A stretch of DNA of 57,037 nt from Thermodesulfovibrio sp. (GTDB taxonomy: Bacteria > Nitrospirota > Thermodesulfovibrionia > Thermodesulfovibrionales > Thermodesulfovibrionaceae), in assembly GCA_025057595.1 (NCBI GenBank), contig JANXBK010000008.1:1-57037 (forward strand). Reading direction: 5' to 3'. A program made the translations under genes and the position numbers. The notes beneath the pieces are model-generated. The model was not told the origin of the DNA and did no database searches. It saw nothing but the letters and a program-made list of their open reading frames with translations. Each line of letters opens with the position of its first letter. The first letter of the stretch is position 1. Of the stretch, positions 43,756 to 52,659 are shown piece after piece.

Positions 43756-44754
43756 ATGGGAATAGTTAGAGCTTTATTAGTAGTTTTAGGTTTAATATTT
43801 TTGGCTTATGTTGGAACAGGTATTCTAGGATTAGAAAGTATTTTTGGTGTGGTATTTCCCTATACTGCTTTTGTGATTTTTGTAGTGGGTTTCATTTACA
43901 AAGTCATTAAATGGGGACGTTCCCCAGTGCCTTACAGAATTCCTACAACTGCTGGACAACACTACTCTTCACTTTGGTTTAAACAAAACAAAATTGATAA
44001 TCCCTCAACAGGGTGGGGAGTTGCATTAAGAATGTTCTTTGAGGTTTTTACATTCAGAAGTCTTTTCAGAAACACAAAAGCTGAGTTTCTTAAAGGAAGA
44101 CTTTATATTGGTTCAAGTAAATGGCTTTGGTTTGGGGCAATAGCATTTCATTACTCCTTTTTAATCATATTTTTAAGGCATATGAGATTTTTTACACCTG
44201 AGACTCCCTGGTTAATCTCAGGAATTGAGTCAATTGATAGTTTTCTGCAAATTCATATTCTTGGCTCTCCTCTTTTTTATATTACAAATCTTGTTATAGT
44301 TGGTGCTCTTCTTTATCTTCTTGGAAGAAGAGTATTTGATGCAAAATTAAGATATATTTCTTTACCATCAGATTACTTTCCTCTTTTTCTAATATTAGGG
44401 ATAGTTATAACAGGCATACTGATGAGATATTTCTTTAAAGTTGATGTGACAAAGGTAAAAGAGCTTACACTTAGTCTTACATTTCTTAAGCCTACAGTTC
44501 CTGAAGGAATTGGCTCTCTCTTTTATATTCATTTCTTCCTTATAAGTGTTCTTTTTGCTTACTTTCCATTCAGTAAGCTAATGCATATGGCTGGAGTATT
44601 TCTGTCTCCAACAAGAAATCTTGCAAATAACAATAGGATGAAAAGACATGTTAATCCTTGGGAGTATCCTGTCAAGCATCGTCATTATGAAGAGTATGAA
44701 GATGAATTTAGAGATAAAATGAAAAAAGCAGGAATACCTGTAGAAAAGGAGTGA
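43756..44754 (+). CDS. dsrM: DsrM, membrane cytochrome b subunit
   Basis: 332 aa NarI-like dihaem cytochrome b of the DsrMKJOP complex that exchanges electrons with menaquinone and passes them to DsrK. About six membrane helices: residues 3-24, 33-52, 118-137, 166-184, 204-222 and 250-270. Candidate haem-ligating His are seen in AFHYSFLIIFLRHMRFF, QIHILG and YIHFFLISVLFAYFPFSKLMH. A cytoplasmic C-terminal tail with RHVNPWEYPVKHRHYEEYE follows. GGGGTAAGGAG lies just before the ATG. It is the first of five contiguous dsr genes. Confidence 0.96.
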   Translation: MGIVRALLVVLGLIFLAYVGTGILGLESIFGVVFPYTAFVIFVVGFIYKVIKWGRSPVPYRIPTTAGQHYSSLWFKQNKIDNPSTGWGVALRMFFEVFTFRSLFRNTKAEFLKGRLYIGSSKWLWFGAIAFHYSFLIIFLRHMRFFTPETPWLISGIESIDSFLQIHILGSPLFYITNLVIVGALLYLLGRRVFDAKLRYISLPSDYFPLFLILGIVITGILMRYFFKVDVTKVKELTLSLTFLKPTVPEGIGSLFYIHFFLISVLFAYFPFSKLMHMAGVFLSPTRNLANNNRMKRHVNPWEYPVKHRHYEEYEDEFRDKMKKAGIPVEKE

Positions 44755-44758
44755 AACT

Positions 44759-46369
44759 ATGAGACTACCAAGGCCTGAAGAATTAATTTCAACAGTGAAT
44801 CTAAAGAAGACTCCACCTAAATGGTGGATGGATCTGAAAGCAGAGTTTAAACCTGGTTTTTACTGTTATGGCGCAAAAGGAAAGAATCTCGCTTATGTTG
44901 ATTTTCCAAATGCCAGAGATTGGTCCCCAACAGAAGAGGATTGGAAACTTCCTGAGGACTGGAAACGAATAGTTATTGAAGGAATCCGACAAAGAATTGA
45001 AAGATTTAGAACATTTCATATTTTTATGGACATCTGTGTGAGATGCGGTGCATGTGCAGATAAGTGTCATTTCTTCCTTGGCACAGGAGACCCCAAAAAT
45101 ATGCCTGTCCTTAGAGCAGAGCTTTTAAGATCCGTTTACAGAAGATATTTTACCAGTGGTGGGAAAATATTTGGAAGATTTGGAGGAGCAAGGGATCTTG
45201 AGCTTGATGTTCTTAAAGAGCTTTGGTACTACTTTTATCAATGCACTGAATGTAGACGTTGTTCTCTTTTCTGTCCTTATGGGATTGATACTGCCGAGAT
45301 TACAATAATGGGAAGAGAGCTTATGAATCTTTTAGGTTTAAACACTGATTGGATATCAGGTCCTGTTGCAAACTGTTACAGAACAGGGAATCATCTTGGA
45401 ATAGAGCCTCATACTATGAAGTCTACTCTTGAGTTTCTTTGTGATGATATTGAGACTATAACAGGAATAAGAATCGATCCACCAATTAATAAAAAAGGAG
45501 CAGAAATTCTATGGGTAGAGCCCTCTGGAGACCTTTTTGCAGTTCCAGGTGTTTATGTTGCTATGGGAACTTTGATGCTTTTCCATGAAATAGGGCTTGA
45601 TTATACATGGAGTACTTATGCCTCTGAAGGTGGAAACTTTGGATATTTTACATCCTTAGAGATGGCAAAAAGACTACACTCAAAAATATATGAAGAGGCA
45701 AAGAGACTCAAGGTTAAATGGATACTTGGTGGAGAGTGTGGACATATGTGGAGGGTTTGGCATCAGTATCATGATACATGGTTTGGTCCGATAGATTTCC
45801 TTGAAGAGCCAGTTTCTCCAATAACTGGAACGAAGTTTGAGCATGCAAAATCAACAAAAATTGTTCATATATCAGAATTTACTGCAGATCTTATAAGACA
45901 CGGTGTACTTAAATTTGACAAAAGCAGAAACGATAATTTTATTGTAACATTCCATGACTCTTGTAATGTTTCAAGAGGAATGGGTATGTTTGAAGAGCCA
46001 AGATATATAATCAAAAGCGTATGTAATCACTTCTACGAGATGCCAGATGAGACTATAAGAGAGCAGACATTCTGTTGCGGTGGAGGTTCTGGACTTAATG
46101 CTGGTGAGATAATGGAGCTTAGAATGAGAGGAGGCTTCCCTAGAGCAAATGCTGTAAGATATGTTCATGAGAAATTTGGTGTAAATATGCTTGCTTGTAT
46201 TTGTGCAATAGACAGAGCTCAGCTTCCTCCACTTATGGAGTATTGGGTTCCTCAAGTAAGAGTTTGTGGAGTTACAGAGCTTGTTGCAAATGCCTTAATA
46301 ATGAAGGGTGAGAAAGAAAGAACAATGAATTTAAGGATGGAACCACTGCCTGGAAAGGAGGGACAGTAA
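44759..46369 (+). CDS. dsrK: DsrK, HdrD-like catalytic iron-sulfur subunit
   Basis: 536 aa cytoplasmic subunit that reduces the DsrC trisulfide using electrons from DsrM. Two 4Fe-4S sites: DICVRCGACADKCHFF near 96 and YQCTECRRCSLFCPYG near 160. The C-terminal half has the CCG-type Cys sets of heterodisulfide reductase: ILGGECGHMWRVWH, TFHDSCNVSRGMG and EQTFCCGGGSGLNAGEI, which hold a special 4Fe-4S centre that binds substrate sulfur. Start ATG with GGAG upstream, 4 bases after dsrM; ends 1 base before dsrJ. Confidence 0.98.
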   Translation: MRLPRPEELISTVNLKKTPPKWWMDLKAEFKPGFYCYGAKGKNLAYVDFPNARDWSPTEEDWKLPEDWKRIVIEGIRQRIERFRTFHIFMDICVRCGACADKCHFFLGTGDPKNMPVLRAELLRSVYRRYFTSGGKIFGRFGGARDLELDVLKELWYYFYQCTECRRCSLFCPYGIDTAEITIMGRELMNLLGLNTDWISGPVANCYRTGNHLGIEPHTMKSTLEFLCDDIETITGIRIDPPINKKGAEILWVEPSGDLFAVPGVYVAMGTLMLFHEIGLDYTWSTYASEGGNFGYFTSLEMAKRLHSKIYEEAKRLKVKWILGGECGHMWRVWHQYHDTWFGPIDFLEEPVSPITGTKFEHAKSTKIVHISEFTADLIRHGVLKFDKSRNDNFIVTFHDSCNVSRGMGMFEEPRYIIKSVCNHFYEMPDETIREQTFCCGGGSGLNAGEIMELRMRGGFPRANAVRYVHEKFGVNMLACICAIDRAQLPPLMEYWVPQVRVCGVTELVANALIMKGEKERTMNLRMEPLPGKEGQ

Positions 46370-46370
46370 G

Positions 46371-46787
46371 ATGTACGATGGATGGAAGATAATTATTGGA
46401 TTACTTGTTTTTGTTGGTTTTGTTACCTTGCCATTTACTTTAAGTATAGGTAAAGACTATATAAAAGTGGACCCGAAAATTGACACACCTGAGATACAGA
46501 AGCTTCCTTCAGCTGAAAGAAAATGTGTTGAGTCTAAGGAGTTTATGAGAAAAGAGCATATGAAAATGCTTATTGATTGGAGAGATGCTGTTGTAAGAGA
46601 GGGGAAAACACTCTATGTAAACAGTGAGGGTAAAAGCTTTAATATGAGTCTTCAGAATACCTGTATGCAGTGTCATTCTAATAAATCAAAGTTCTGTGAC
46701 GAATGTCATAACTATTTAGCAGTGAAACCCTATTGTTGGGATTGTCATCTTGAACCTAAGGAAGACAAAAAGGAGGCAAGACGATGA
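46371..46787 (+). CDS. dsrJ: DsrJ, triheme cytochrome c
   Basis: 138 aa periplasmic cytochrome held by an uncleaved N-terminal helix (about 6-25). Three haem-binding CxxCH sites are in NTCMQCHSNK, KFCDECHNYL and PYCWDCHLEP, within 35 residues. In known DsrJ one haem has an unusual cysteine ligand; an extra Cys is visible in AERKCVESKEF near residue 45, which could fill that role. It overlaps dsrO by 4 bases. It connects the complex to periplasmic electron carriers. Confidence 0.97.
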   Translation: MYDGWKIIIGLLVFVGFVTLPFTLSIGKDYIKVDPKIDTPEIQKLPSAERKCVESKEFMRKEHMKMLIDWRDAVVREGKTLYVNSEGKSFNMSLQNTCMQCHSNKSKFCDECHNYLAVKPYCWDCHLEPKEDKKEARR

Positions 46788-47566
46788 GAATTGACAGAAG
46801 ACAGTTTCTAAAAATATTAGGTATAGGTGCTTTTATAGGAGTTGGTGGCTGGTCTATGTTTGAAGTAGTAAGTAAGAGAGAGATTGAGGCATTTGTTGAA
46901 AGATATAAAAAGGTACCAGAGGCATTACAGGCAAAAAGATGGGCAATGGTTATAGATTTGAAGAAACTTGATGAAAAAATAATGAATGACTGCATAGAGA
47001 TATGTCATCGTATACACAATGTGCCTGCTCTATTGAATCCTAAGGAAGAGATAAAATGGATATGGAAAGAAAAATTTAAGTATGTCTTTCCGGAGATGAA
47101 GGATGAATATATGCCAGAGGAAATTAAAAATAAGTACGTTTTAGTATTATGCAATCACTGTGAAAATCCTCCATGTGTAAGAGTTTGTCCAACAAAAGCA
47201 ACTTTCAAAAGAAAAGATGGAATTGTAATGATGGATATGCATAGATGTATTGGTTGTAGATTCTGTATGGCTGGATGCCCCTATGGAGCAAGAAGCTTTA
47301 ACTGGAGAGATCCAAGACAATATGTAAAGGAAGAAAATAAAGAATTTCCACTAAGAATGAAAGGTGTTGTTGAGAAATGCACTTTCTGCTATGAAAGAAT
47401 AGACAGAGGGCTTCCACCAGCCTGTGTAGAGGTTTCCAAGGGTGCTATTGTATTTGGTGACATAACTGATCCTAATTCAGAGGTAAGAAAGATCCTTGCC
47501 TCTAATTTTGCTATTAGAAGAAAACCCAAACTCGGAACAAAACCGAGCATATATTATTTACTGTAG
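46784..47566 (+). CDS. dsrO: DsrO, periplasmic iron-sulfur protein
   Basis: 260 aa ferredoxin-like electron-transfer subunit. The twin-arginine start IDRRQFLKILGIGAFIGV predicts Tat export of the folded protein. Clusters: CIEICHRIHN near 67, LCNHCENPPCVRVCPTKA near 122, HRCIGCRFCMAGCPYGAR near 154 and EKCTFCYERIDRG...PACVEV near 197, consistent with up to four 4Fe-4S centres as in DmsB/HybA relatives. It sits between DsrJ and the quinone-binding DsrP and is translated in overlap with dsrJ. Confidence 0.97.
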   Translation: MRIDRRQFLKILGIGAFIGVGGWSMFEVVSKREIEAFVERYKKVPEALQAKRWAMVIDLKKLDEKIMNDCIEICHRIHNVPALLNPKEEIKWIWKEKFKYVFPEMKDEYMPEEIKNKYVLVLCNHCENPPCVRVCPTKATFKRKDGIVMMDMHRCIGCRFCMAGCPYGARSFNWRDPRQYVKEENKEFPLRMKGVVEKCTFCYERIDRGLPPACVEVSKGAIVFGDITDPNSEVRKILASNFAIRRKPKLGTKPSIYYLL

Positions 47567-47577
47567 GAGGATAAAAA

Positions 47578-48765
47578 ATGCTTGAACTTGTGCTAAAAGG
47601 AAGTCAAAGATACTGGGCTTGGGTAATATTTTTAATGGCTCTAATAGGAGTTGGCTTTATAGCTTATTTATATCAATTAAAAGTGGGTTTAGGAATCACC
47701 GGAATGAGTAGAGATGTATCATGGGGTTTATATATTGGTCAGTTTACTTTTCTTGTTGGAGTTGCTGCTTCTGCTGTTACTGTGGTGCTACCTTATTATC
47801 TTCATAACTATAAAAAATATGGAAGAATCGCAGTTATAGGTGAATTCCTTGCAATCGCTTCTGTTTTGATGTGTATGCTTTTTATCTTTGTTGATCTTGG
47901 ACAGCCAATGAGAGTTTTAAATGTCCTGTTGCATCCTACACCAAACTCTATAATGTTTTATGATATGATTGTTCTGAGTGGATATTTGATTCTAAATCTC
48001 CTTTGTGGCTGGGTAATTCTCACAGCTGAAAAAAAAGGTGCTCCTCCTCCCAAATGGATTAAACCATTTTTATATATAGCTATTTGTTGGGCCCCCTCTA
48101 TCCATATTGTTACTGCCTTTTTGTATCAAGGCTTACCAGGAAGGGATTATTGGATGACTGCAATCATGGCTGCAAAATTTTTATCTTCAGCTTTTGCATC
48201 AGGTCCTGCCCTACTTGTGATTCTTTGTATGATTGTAAGAAGATTTACTAATTTTGATCCAGGGAAAGAGGCAATACAGACTCTTGCAAAAACTTCAGCC
48301 TATTTCTTATTAGTTACCATAGGTTTTTATCTATTTGAAGTATTTACAGCCTTCTATAGCGGAATCCCAAGTCATCAGTACTCTATAATATATTTATTTA
48401 AAGGTTTAGAAGGATATACGAAACTTGTACCTGTAATGAGTATATGTATACTTCTTGCAGCAATAGGTGTGATTATTTTGGTAACTCCTCCTTTAAGAAA
48501 ATGGGAAGTAACTCTCGCAATAGGAGCTGCTGCTACATTTCTATGCCTATGGCTTGAAAAAGGAATAAGCCTTGTTGTTGGTGGTTTTATTCCCAATCCA
48601 TTTGATAAAGTATTTGAATACTGGCCAACAATTCCTGAAACATTGATTACTATTGGTGTTTGGTCTGTTGGATTTTTTGTGCTTACACTACTTTATAAGA
48701 TTGCTGCAACAGTTAAAGAAAAAGCAATATTTGATAAATATGGAGAAAAACAAGTAAAAACTTAA
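47578..48765 (+). CDS. dsrP: DsrP, NrfD-like integral membrane subunit
   Basis: 395 aa with about ten membrane helices, of the NrfD/HybB family that oxidises or reduces quinol without haem. Family pieces include MSRDVSWGLYIGQFTFLVGV near 42, FVDLGQPMRVLNVLLHPTPN near 100, the CWAPSIHIVTAFLYQG turn near 168 and LEKGISLVVGGFIPNPFD near 325. An AGGAGG site precedes the ATG. It closes the dsrMKJOP series; its stop is followed after 9 bases by the G-rich motif at 48775-48791. Confidence 0.97.
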   Translation: MLELVLKGSQRYWAWVIFLMALIGVGFIAYLYQLKVGLGITGMSRDVSWGLYIGQFTFLVGVAASAVTVVLPYYLHNYKKYGRIAVIGEFLAIASVLMCMLFIFVDLGQPMRVLNVLLHPTPNSIMFYDMIVLSGYLILNLLCGWVILTAEKKGAPPPKWIKPFLYIAICWAPSIHIVTAFLYQGLPGRDYWMTAIMAAKFLSSAFASGPALLVILCMIVRRFTNFDPGKEAIQTLAKTSAYFLLVTIGFYLFEVFTAFYSGIPSHQYSIIYLFKGLEGYTKLVPVMSICILLAAIGVIILVTPPLRKWEVTLAIGAAATFLCLWLEKGISLVVGGFIPNPFDKVFEYWPTIPETLITIGVWSVGFFVLTLLYKIAATVKEKAIFDKYGEKQVKT

Positions 48766-48814: not shown

Positions 48815-48878
48815 TCAGCCATCAAAACTATTTATTAAAAATAACTCTTCGAAAAATATTAACAAGCAATATTTTATA

Positions 48879-48903
48879 AATATGCAACATTTTGTTGCAT
48901 ATT
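48879..48903. repeat. palindrome, candidate upstream activator site
   Basis: Arms AATATGCAACA and TGTTGCATATT match perfectly across a 3-base TTT gap. Its centre lies about 108 bases before the expected sigma-54 start point, the usual distance for an enhancer bound by an NtrC-type activator. No T run follows, so a terminator is unlikely. The protein that binds it is unknown. Confidence 0.55.
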
Positions 48904-48970
48904 ACTTAAAATTTAAAGAAAAAATTTTAAAAAGATGGATACATTATAGGTTTTTATTACTGAAGTTTTA

Positions 48971-48990
48971 TTAGGCACAGATATTGCATT
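48971..48990 (+). promoter_or_regulatory. sigma-54 promoter of the usp-TauE operon
   Basis: TTAGGCACAGATATTGCATT contains GG at 48974-48975 and GC at 48986-48987 with exactly 10 bases between, and fits the sigma-54 consensus (TGGCAC-N5-TTGC) at all but one core base (A for T before GG). Transcription would begin near 48999, leaving a leader of about 70 bases. A search by eye for other GGCAC-N5-TTGC sites in the window found none as good. Confidence 0.65.
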
Positions 48991-49069
48991 ATTACTTTTG
49001 TAGAGAAGAAAGGAGGTGAAAAGAGTTATAAAAACTAAAAAGACCTAAAAACTTTTTAAGGAGGAGGTT

Positions 49070-49483
49070 ATGAAAATATTAGTACCAACGGATGGTTCAG
49101 AGTATGCGATGAAAGCTGTAAACAAAGCAGTTGAGATGGCAGAAAAAGAAAAAGCAGAAGTAACACTGATGGCTGTCTCCTATAGTTTTTCCTTAGGTGA
49201 AGACGAGTTTCCAGGTAGTATTTTAGAAAGGCTTGATGAGGAAGCTCAAAAAGCATTAGAAAAAGCAAAAGAAGTCTTTAACAAAAAGGGCATATCTGTT
49301 AAGACAGTGATTGAAAGAGGAGCAGTTCCTGCAAATAACATACTAAAGAAAGCAGAAGCAGAAAAATTTGATTTAATTATAATGGGGCACAGAGGCAAAG
49401 GTGAGTTTCCAGGTGGAGGAATAGGAAGCACTGCAGTAAAAGTAGTATCTTATGCGCCATGTAGTGTTTTAATCGTTAAATAA
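49070..49483 (+). CDS. universal stress protein (UspA family)
   Basis: 137 aa single-domain Usp. Starts MKILVPTDGSEYAMKAVNKA and ends with the nucleotide-binding IIMGHRGKGEFPGGGIGSTA, then VKVVSYAPCSVLIVK. The G-2x-G-9x-G(S/T) ATP-binding pattern (GHRGKG...GSTA) is kept, so it probably binds ATP. A strong GGAGGAGG precedes the ATG. As first gene of the sigma-54 unit, 21 bases before the small membrane protein, it may sense energy state for the permease that follows; this link is inferred. Confidence 0.92.
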   Translation: MKILVPTDGSEYAMKAVNKAVEMAEKEKAEVTLMAVSYSFSLGEDEFPGSILERLDEEAQKALEKAKEVFNKKGISVKTVIERGAVPANNILKKAEAEKFDLIIMGHRGKGEFPGGGIGSTAVKVVSYAPCSVLIVK

Positions 49484-49504: not shown

Positions 49505-49795
49505 ATGAAAAAGCTGATTAGTTTAATGGCATCCATTGTCGGAATCATTATGATAATACCCGCTGTTGCTATGGCGAAGGAGAAAGTAGGATGGCTTGTA
49601 GTTGTTGCCTACACAAAAGATGTTAAGGGTTTAAATCTTTGGTGGGCTAATCTTTACAATGAAAATATGTTTCTTTTCACAATTCTTACAGGCTGTATAG
49701 TTCCGGTTTTAGGAATATTTCTTGGATGGGTAGGTGACTGGGCAATAAGGCTAACAGGTATTGATGTTACAAAAAGAGAGCTTGCAGAACACTAA
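49505..49795 (+). CDS. small membrane protein linked to TauE-type permease
   Basis: 96 aa, not a family I can name. A hydrophobic start (about 4-24, ISLMASIVGIIMIIPAVAMA) may be a cleaved signal. A soluble stretch KDVKGLNLWWANLYNENMF follows, then one membrane helix at about 54-76 (LFTILTGCIVPVLGIFLGWV) and a short charged tail. The GGGGG-rich ribosome site is good. It stands 15 bases before the TauE/SafE gene, which suggests a small accessory subunit. Confidence 0.75.
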   Translation: MKKLISLMASIVGIIMIIPAVAMAKEKVGWLVVVAYTKDVKGLNLWWANLYNENMFLFTILTGCIVPVLGIFLGWVGDWAIRLTGIDVTKRELAEH

Positions 49796-49810: not shown

Positions 49811-50851
49811 ATGGAATGGTTATATCTTTATATGCCAATTTCAGGAGTTGATATTTTTTGGCCGGGATTAGTCATATTGGGATTAGGAGTTGGAATCTTG
49901 GGTGGTTTCTACGGAATGGGTGGAGCTTGGATGATTACACCAGGTCTTAATATTTTAGGATTCCCAATGGCTTTTGCTATCGGAACAGATATTGCGCATA
50001 TTGCAGGAAAATCTATTGTTTCAACGATGAGGCATGCAAGATTTGGAAATGTTGACTATCCATTAGGTATTGCAATGATTGTAGGAACAGTGTTAGGATT
50101 TGAATCTGGTGCGCAACTTGTTATGCTTTTTGAAAGAATCGGTAAAGTTGACCTCTACGTAAGAATAATATATCTGTTTGTTCTTGCTTTTATTGCTTGG
50201 ACAGTCTATTTAGATGTTAGAAAGCTTAAAAGAAAAAAGATGATGAAAGGTGAGGTATCTAAGCTTGAGGCAGGTGTTGAGTGGTATAAGACATTACATA
50301 AGATTAAAATTCCTCCAATCTTCCATTTTAAACAGGCACAAATAAGGGTATCTTTCTGGTTACCAGTAATGGTTGGATACGCTACAGGTTTACTAGCTGG
50401 TGTTCTTGGAATTGGTGGAGGATTAATAAGAATGCCTGCTTTAATTTATTTAGTAGGCTGTCCTACACATGTTGCTGTTGGAACAGATCTTTTTGAGGTT
50501 ATGATTTCAGGTCTTTATGGTACATTTACTTACACATGGAAAGGAAGAACAGAGCTAATAGGTGTTATTGTTATGTTAGCTGGAGCTGCTATAGGTGCAC
50601 AGTTTGGAGCGGTAGCAACAAAATACTTCAAGGGAATGGCAATAAGAGTGCTTTTTGCTTGTGCTGTTTTTATAGCTTTTCTCTCAATAGTTCAGAAGTT
50701 AATTGCAAGGCTATATGATATTGTATGGCTTGATCATGCCTCTACAGTAACAATTCTTGGTGGAGTGTTCGTAATAATGTGTATCATAGTTTATAAAGCG
50801 ATTGCAGGTATGAGAGCAGAAGTTAAGGCTAAAAAACAGGCTCAAACATAA
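49811..50851 (+). CDS. TauE/SafE (TSUP) family permease, probable sulfur oxyanion transporter
   Basis: 346 aa with about eight membrane helices in two related halves. The repeated family motif is seen as GGFYGMGGAWMITPGLNILG near 31 and GVLGIGGGLIRMPALIYLVG near 197, each followed by a (A)VGTD-type turn (FAIGTDIAHIAGKSI and VAVGTDLFEVMISG). A hydrophilic loop at about 133-175 separates the halves. TSUP proteins carry sulfite, sulfoacetate, sulfate and related anions. In a sulfate reducer, beside dsr genes, sulfate uptake or sulfite/sulfide handling is the reasonable guess; direction and substrate are not shown by sequence. Confidence 0.88.
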   Translation: MEWLYLYMPISGVDIFWPGLVILGLGVGILGGFYGMGGAWMITPGLNILGFPMAFAIGTDIAHIAGKSIVSTMRHARFGNVDYPLGIAMIVGTVLGFESGAQLVMLFERIGKVDLYVRIIYLFVLAFIAWTVYLDVRKLKRKKMMKGEVSKLEAGVEWYKTLHKIKIPPIFHFKQAQIRVSFWLPVMVGYATGLLAGVLGIGGGLIRMPALIYLVGCPTHVAVGTDLFEVMISGLYGTFTYTWKGRTELIGVIVMLAGAAIGAQFGAVATKYFKGMAIRVLFACAVFIAFLSIVQKLIARLYDIVWLDHASTVTILGGVFVIMCIIVYKAIAGMRAEVKAKKQAQT

Positions 50852-50865
50852 TAAGGAGGTGTAAT

Positions 50866-51522
50866 ATGGCTATAACTTGGAAAGATGCTACAACAACAGA
50901 AAAGTTCTTCTACATATATTTTGCTGTAACCTTTATCGGAGCTATAATACTACTTGTGGGATTTCATCCAAAGGAGTTTGGCACAGTAGTCCAAGGAAGA
51001 ACAATTGATTATGATCCAGAAAAGATGATTGTAACTGTTATCCTTGATGCAAAGCAGGATGCTAAAAAGCCAGACTACTCTATTCTCCCTCCAGCAAAAT
51101 TTAAGCTTCCTGAACAGGTATATATGAGAGGACCTGAGCCAAGAGCAGGCAAAAGGGCTAAACTTGATTTAGAGAAAAATGAGATTGTTATATTTGATGA
51201 TGCTACTCAGAATTTTCTAAAAATTCCAATTAAGGTCGTAGAAAAGAAAGAGGGAGTTAGAAGAGATGATCCTCTTGTAAAAGACAAAAAATTCCCAATA
51301 ATTGATAAAGAAAAAAGTACAATAACACTTTACTCTGCAAGACTAAGGGTTCTTTCAACTATTGAAGTTCCTCGGGAGCATATTGATCGTCCACCTAAAA
51401 CATGGGATGCAGGAGATGAGGTAAGAATATACTATCATCCTAAGGAGTGCGATGCACAAACAGGAATTTGCAAAGCCCATAAGTTCATGAATATCACGAG
51501 AACCGATATCTTCAAGAAATAA
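50866..51522 (+). CDS. membrane-anchored periplasmic protein, unknown, TauE-linked
   Basis: 218 aa, not recognised with certainty. One membrane helix near the start (about 14-34, FYIYFAVTFIGAIILLVGF) puts the rest outside the cytoplasm. The soluble part is beta-rich, with repeated strand-turn pieces such as RTIDYDPEKMIVTVILD, KLDLEKNEIVIFDDATQN and IDKEKSTITLYSARLRVL. Two Cys near the end (ECDAQTGIC) could form a disulfide or bind a ligand. AAGGAGGTG precedes the ATG, 14 bases after the permease gene. It is last before a strong hairpin, so it completes the four-gene unit. Confidence 0.75.
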   Translation: MAITWKDATTTEKFFYIYFAVTFIGAIILLVGFHPKEFGTVVQGRTIDYDPEKMIVTVILDAKQDAKKPDYSILPPAKFKLPEQVYMRGPEPRAGKRAKLDLEKNEIVIFDDATQNFLKIPIKVVEKKEGVRRDDPLVKDKKFPIIDKEKSTITLYSARLRVLSTIEVPREHIDRPPKTWDAGDEVRIYYHPKECDAQTGICKAHKFMNITRTDIFKK

Positions 51523-51573: not shown

Positions 51574-52659
51574 GTGAATAAAAAGAACTTAGTTATTCTT
51601 ATTGTTTTTAATTCAATTCTTCTTGCGGAATTAGTATTTAGTCTTTATCAAGCAAGTAAAAATCCAGAAAATGTAACAGTAGTTTTTCTTTCATATTTTT
51701 TAATCTTGGTAATTCCTACCTTTATTATTGGTAGAGTGGTTGTGAAGAGACTTTTAACTCTTCCTAAGCCTACTAAGGGAACTTTAGACCTTCAGTTAGA
51801 AGAACAAAAGATTTTATATGAGAAGCTTTTTGAAAGCGAAAGACAAATAGAAGGAAATTTAGAAAAGCCAAAATCTGTAGTTCACATTTTAAAAAGAAGA
51901 GAGCTAATAGGCAAACTCTCAATATTATTTATGATTTTATTTATATTCTCTTTTCTTGATGGATGTGTTAATAAAATCTTACATCCGCCAAATTTATTAG
52001 ATCTTATGCCAGGACAATCTGTTAATGTTAATGCACCTTTAGAAAAGAAAGTAAGAGGAATTGATGAACTAATATATACTACAACTTCAGATAAGATAAA
52101 ACTTGCATTTAATGAAATTTATACAGGTTTTTGGCTTGGAGGAACAGAGTGGAGAGGTGTTTTAACTGTAGATTCTGATATAAAACCAGGTAATTATCAA
52201 GTAGTTGTTAATACAAAAGAAGGTCAAAAGTTTCCTTTTGTTTTTTATATAAGAATACATGATAGCAAAGAAAGCTTAAAAAGGGCTTCTATGTCATTGA
52301 CTAAAAAAATCTCTGGATTATCTCCCTGGTTAGTTTTTGCTTTTTCAGGGCTTTTAATAGCAGTCATAGCATTTTATATATTGAAGCTATCAAATAAAAT
52401 TGAAGCTATTATGCTTCAAAACGGTCAGGCAGAAGTATTTTTTGTAAAAAGAGGACAACTTGTTACAGAGATTTTATTTGGTCTTGGTAGCAAAAATAAT
52501 ATTAAATCAGGAGATATACTAAATATTTATACAGATAAAGGAAAACCCATAGGAAATGTCATTGTTCAACTCTGTACTGATAAAAACTCTGTGGGTATTG
52601 TAAAGGCAGAGTATAATGTCAAACCAGGATTTATTGTTGCTGTAAGAAAACCACAATAG
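51574..52659 (+). CDS. multi-helix membrane protein, unknown
   Basis: 361 aa, GTG start with AAGGAAG upstream. Not recognised. Membrane helices are at about 6-25, 33-53, 113-130 and 242-264. The segment between the third and fourth (about 135-235) is outside or inside as one soluble domain with GQSVNVNAPLEKKVRGIDEL, YTGFWLGGTEWRGVLTVDSD and KPGNYQVVVNT, which looks like a beta-sandwich. The C-terminal 95 residues form another beta-rich domain (NGQAEVFFVKRGQLVTEI, GDILNIYTDKGKPIGNVIV). It starts 24 bases after the strong hairpin, so it is probably a separate unit. Confidence 0.7.
   Translation: MNKKNLVILIVFNSILLAELVFSLYQASKNPENVTVVFLSYFLILVIPTFIIGRVVVKRLLTLPKPTKGTLDLQLEEQKILYEKLFESERQIEGNLEKPKSVVHILKRRELIGKLSILFMILFIFSFLDGCVNKILHPPNLLDLMPGQSVNVNAPLEKKVRGIDELIYTTTSDKIKLAFNEIYTGFWLGGTEWRGVLTVDSDIKPGNYQVVVNTKEGQKFPFVFYIRIHDSKESLKRASMSLTKKISGLSPWLVFAFSGLLIAVIAFYILKLSNKIEAIMLQNGQAEVFFVKRGQLVTEILFGLGSKNNIKSGDILNIYTDKGKPIGNVIVQLCTDKNSVGIVKAEYNVKPGFIVAVRKPQ

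Follow-up and report, generated by a model that had tools for sequence, protein, structure and literature searches.

Does the perfect palindrome that shares the dsrP/usp intergenic region with a sigma-54-type promoter form, together with that promoter, a real on-switch of the downstream usp-tauE operon in Thermodesulfovibrio? On sequence comparison it almost certainly does, because, in genomes across the order Thermodesulfovibrionales, the pair recurs beside the gene of one and the same sigma-54 activator. The window, by which we mean the whole 57,037-nucleotide stretch analysed, is contig C71 of a 1.17-Mb assembly (~72% complete), and the features in question are the following.

43756-48765, upstream of the palindrome: presumed dsrMKJOP operon; dsrP matches NrfD, and the other gene names are read from the sequences and presumed to apply.
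48879-48903, strand not applicable: perfect palindrome AATATGCAACA-TTT-TGTTGCATATT with 11-base arms, by direct reading.
48883-48899: predicted upstream activator site (UAS), 17-bp core TGCAACATTTTGTTGCA, from conservation in five congeners and at other-genus activator loci and from matrix rank 1.
48971-48990, + strand: sigma-54 promoter TTAGGCACAGATATTGCATT (GG-N10-GC; core 48973-48987), from direct reading, five congeners and matrix rank 1.
48999, + strand: expected transcription start, from the -12 element and sigma-54 promoter geometry.
49008-49022, + strand: Shine-Dalgarno-like block GAAAGGAGGTGAAAA of the 5' leader, ranking among the four best-conserved intergenic 15-mers.
49070-49483, + strand: usp, universal stress protein of 137 aa (Pfam PF00582), the first gene of the operon.
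49505-49795, + strand: small membrane protein of 96 aa, conserved in the operon, no Pfam match.
49811-50851, + strand: TauE/SafE (TSUP) family permease of 346 aa (Pfam PF01925, E 2.6e-40).
50866-51522, + strand: DUF4881 protein of 218 aa (Pfam PF16222, E 2.5e-61), for which a literature search found no paper.
51574-52659, + strand: protein of 361 aa, conserved last gene of the operon, no Pfam match.

The original prediction had described an exact GG-N10-GC spacing and a perfect 11-base-arm palindrome about 108 bases before the start point, and direct reading bore out both. GG (48974-48975) and GC (48986-48987) are separated by exactly 10 bases, and the palindrome centre at 48891 lies 108 bases from 48999, near which transcription would be expected to start. 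The promoter has one mismatch to TGGCAC-N5-TTGC (48974-48987); its -24 element reads AGGCAC, not TGGCAC, and the A is likewise found in the other five operons described below. rpoN, on whose presence the prediction depended, is encoded on contig C5 (PF04552, E 6.4e-60, in a 486-aa open frame).

Motif statistics alone would be weak evidence, each element being only modestly unusual; it is conservation that makes the case. GGCAY-N5-TTGC has one occurrence in the window, where 0.55 would be expected, and appears at least once in 41 of 100 shuffles. The strict core has three occurrences in the window genome, and because two of these (C22:94769 and C22:113121) fall inside genes, matches to the strict pattern are not by themselves promoters. 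TGCAA-N7-TTGCA with at most one mismatch occurs three times in the window against 3.4 expected, the site at the palindrome being the sole exact one; the whole genome holds two exact cores. Among further exact sites in the genus, several of those inspected are intragenic and probably due to chance.

We also scored the window with two matrices trained on other genera only, one for the UAS (21 activator-linked sites) and one for the promoter (19 promoters). Over the 57 kb the UAS matrix ranked the site at 48880 first with 24.4 bits, against 12.7 for the runner-up and at most 18.3 in 30 random windows, and the sigma-54 matrix ranked 48971 first with 18.4 bits (runner-up 12.95; 18.4 reached by 1 of 30 random windows). 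The training sites had been picked for likeness to the core; the window sequence is absent from the matrix, yet the matrix still depends on a core that the window had first suggested. Chance is very unlikely to have placed the two top hits in a single intergenic region with 82 bp between them.

Orthologues of usp are present in five congeners (69-75% identity), and all five of their usp-tauE operons have both elements upstream, the core as TGCAACATTT-N2-TTGC and the sigma-54 site as AGGCAY-N5-TTGCA. The inverted repeat, 82 bp upstream of the promoter in the window, is thus retained in 6/6 orthologous promoters. What is conserved is TGCAA-N7-TTGCA; the palindrome arms beyond TGCAA/TTGCA show no conservation among the congeners. 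Since the two elements are retained while the upstream neighbour varies (pyrG in three genomes, a trkA-like and a Rho-like gene in one each, dsrP in the window), they belong to the usp-tauE operon. Ranked by mismatches summed over the five genomes, the best-conserved intergenic 15-mers are the UAS (6), an adjoining AT block (8), the Shine-Dalgarno-like block (9) and the sigma-54 site (11), against 15-17 mismatches in shuffled controls.

The genome encodes six full sigma-54 activators, one of which is the candidate partner of these elements.

G000:C3:31446-32732: NtrC-family activator of 429 aa, AAA+ domain and Fis-type HTH.

Its domains are Sigma54_activat (PF00158, E 4e-69) and HTH_8 (PF02954, E 5e-13), and GAFTGA is present in the sequence. 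The protein aligns end to end with NtrC1 (PDB 4l4u) and has the same three-domain layout, but in contrast to NtrC1 its receiver-like N terminus gives a partial Response_reg match below the Pfam cut-off; Asp51 and Lys95 are invariant, and the acidic pair is incomplete, one acidic-pocket residue being replaced. mutS, and no kinase, adjoins the gene.

An orthologue of this activator occurs in 16/16 genomes of the genus, including that of the window (74-100% identity), and past its stop codon a sigma-54 site and a core with 0-1 mismatch are present in 15 of the 16, all but the window genome. In most genomes site centres lie at ~+16 and ~+80 and the promoter at ~+140 after the stop; others keep one site. 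Many exact cores at congener loci precede a promoter of the type TCTGGCAT-N4-ATTGCA, and where the operon stayed in place the genes behind that promoter are tauE (422 aa), one encoding 248 aa and a double Usp gene. The layout of activator, site and promoter recurs outside the genus in several families of Thermodesulfovibrionales, where the sites again lie directly after the activator gene, often as two ~64 bp apart. In four genomes of other families (G036, G134, G149 and G062) the activator, the site and a window-type operon (usp, the gene of the 96-aa protein, tauE) are still contiguous. The activator locus of the window genome is without its own site and promoter, and the same contig, C3, holds the second exact core, ~330 bp upstream of a double-Usp gene; after this core come the conserved microprotein and a promoter-like sequence with GT as its -12 element.

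Several side observations concern these loci. A conserved microprotein of ~43-60 aa (MKK[VI]WKKMKDLLVSITFSKPKEFDRL...) is the first gene after the activator-locus sigma-54 site (L062-L067, L133-L137; L075:4321-4494, - strand). It is retained in congeners without tauE at that locus, precedes the double Usp gene in the window genome and has weaker relatives in other families (G149, G081, G060). In other families a gene for a GntR-like regulator of ~245 aa (TVDRDSKEKLYVQIYSI...) directly follows the sigma-54 promoter, mostly before tauE (L115, L118, L119, L121, L122, L126, L129, L130, L138 and L140), and could possibly add a second layer of control. tauE is broken into several frames in L074 (G009) and L120 (G036), and the G009 activator has an in-frame TAA; these are decay or assembly errors.

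Taken with the conservation of both elements, this distribution makes it very probable that the 112-bp region is the enhancer and promoter of a sigma-54-dependent operon driven by the C3 activator. The activator would bind TGCAAC-N5-GTTGCA at 48883-48899, looping of the DNA across 82 bp would bring it to the -24/-12 element, and its AAA+ GAFTGA domain would open the sigma-54 polymerase complex, with transcription from near 48999. The genes for usp, the 96-aa membrane protein, tauE, the DUF4881 protein and the 361-aa protein would then be transcribed as one sigma-54-dependent operon. That the C3 protein is both the binder of the UAS and the activator is what we infer from the comparison, on which the cognacy of activator and site rests because the activator gene and the operon are on different contigs in this genome. 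The NtrC-type activator circuit that had been proposed thus held up as to kind, in that the pair of sites stands beside one NtrC-family activator gene, but the protein in question is an orphan whose receiver is degenerate, and is not NtrC itself.

With six activators to choose from, the sigma-54 promoter could be real and the palindrome still be used by another of them, for example the two-component regulators on contigs C66, C11 and C70, and the core does resemble the NtrC consensus TGCACC-(A/T)4-TGGTGCA (PMC4987338). On the loci compared, we consider this unlikely: in 15 congeners, and in other families too, it is the C3 orthologue that the site adjoins, and the remaining activators sit by kinases or flagellar genes. 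The enteric NtrC enhancer is likewise a 17-bp palindrome (PMC8743547), has TGCA at both ends, stands ahead of a -24/-12 promoter and is served by an AAA+ activator. In the window, however, positions 5 and 13 are A/T instead of C/G, the target is a TauE operon instead of nitrogen genes, and the activator is of the orphan, degenerate-receiver kind. The likeness of the site to that of NtrC is real and yet is no proof of an NtrC site. One of the other activators has a sigma-54-like site, GGCATATTTATTGC, just past its gene (G000:C70:2095-2108, - strand; gene at C70:2617), possibly the same layout of activator then promoter in a different regulon.

A very improbable reading is that the palindrome is an RNA element, a hairpin or terminator at the 3' end of dsrP, and that the sigma-54 match arose by chance. 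The palindrome does lie 114 bp past the dsrP stop, and the strand folds to an 11-bp hairpin (-11.8 kcal/mol, z -4.6), but no T-run follows it, no terminator-like site was found, there was no Rfam match, and it lies upstream of the expected start. The congeners, moreover, keep TGCAA/TTGCA only, with flanking arms that do not pair, and their upstream gene is divergent, which leaves no 3' end to terminate. This reading is largely refuted.

The spacing of the sites points to a history for the locus. From site centre to sigma-54 site the distances are ~124 and ~60 bp at the activator loci of most genomes and 153-159 and 59-61 bp in the five congener operons, where the nearer site is a degenerate TGCATCATTATGAAACA; in the window there is one distance, 82 bp. 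The distances differ by 22, 64 and ~96 bp, values near multiples of 10.5, which is suggestive of sites kept on one face of the helix. We read the window locus as a relocated copy of the switch that would have lost the near site and kept one perfect site. In this clade the operon lies apart from the activator gene, and in four of the six species it adjoins dsrMKJOP. As a case, it is a clean one of an enhancer-promoter unit retained despite changes in operon position, activator linkage and site spacing. It is very improbable that usp-tauE is transcribed from a sigma-70-type promoter, with the two motifs as mere vestiges: the region is AT-rich and a second UAS has been lost, but sigma-70-like matches are at chance level (6 against 4.8 expected on both strands), none lies on the + strand from 48800 to usp, and the -24/-12 element and UAS retain high matrix scores after relocation.

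The idea of sulfur-anion transport, also part of the original prediction, stands at the level of the TauE/TSUP family (by the PF01925 match) and of the dsrMKJOP neighbour, but the substrate is a family-level guess. On the same grounds, together with its presence in sulfate reducers, the operon may move a sulfur compound.

Sigma-54 control of TSUP operons is already known from Desulfovibrio. Nine of the sigma-54 operons of D. vulgaris code for TSUP or PSE transporters whose substrate is unknown (Kazakov et al. 2015, PMC4641369). One example of a TSUP operon under such control is DVU0132-DVU0133, bound by DVU0110/DVUA0057 (PMC4641369). The window shares with these a TSUP operon, a sigma-54 promoter, an activator (EBP) site and a sulfate-reducing host, but belongs to another phylum, with another activator and another site; TGCAA is absent from the text of PMC4641369. 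EBP genes in D. vulgaris are often beside their target (PMC4641369), whereas in the window genome the two are separated. Literature searches found no paper on sigma-54 control of TauE in Thermodesulfovibrio and, among searchable papers, no described sigma-54 regulon in sulfate-reducing Nitrospirota, for which the present comparison offers a named and testable triple of activator, site and operon.

The window-type tauE operon is found in many Desulfobacterota. Seventy such loci from outside Thermodesulfovibrionales had sufficient sequence ahead of tauE to be scored. In 46 of them a sigma-54 site stands on the coding strand no more than 1.2 kb before the gene, compared with 8 on the other strand and 2.1 expected. 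Many of the Desulfobacterota loci (L150-L223) have a larger, divergent activator gene (~830-900 aa), and the UAS core was not seen at them. Together with the window operon, these loci suggest that sulfate reducers in general tend to put TauE-type transporters under sigma-54, with activators that differ between lineages.

For Thermodesulfovibrionales, we give about an even chance to a so far undescribed regulon. In it, an orphan activator with a degenerate receiver would use TGCAA-N7-TTGCA sites to control TauE-type transporters, universal stress proteins and the microprotein (~45-60 aa), and the enhancer-promoter unit would have persisted as operons changed place, also where they came to lie near dsrMKJOP. 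If true, such a regulon would tie dissimilatory sulfur metabolism to a dedicated sigma-54 signal. More tentatively, and with some doubt, the signal could be a cytoplasmic sulfur-anion or envelope-stress cue, sensed via the degenerate receiver rather than a dedicated kinase.

Two minor features of the intergenic region deserve mention. A 24-bp direct repeat (92%) links the end of dsrP (48719-48742) to the left flank of the palindrome (48861-48884) and may mark a rearrangement; pyrG separates dsrP from the operon in three congeners. In the leader, the GAAAGGAGGTGAAAA block is a near-perfect anti-16S complement common to the six operons, lacks a usable start codon and is distinct from the true ribosome-binding site ahead of usp. 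It is possibly a ribosome standby or stabiliser element, and we take it to resemble the STAB-SD stabiliser.
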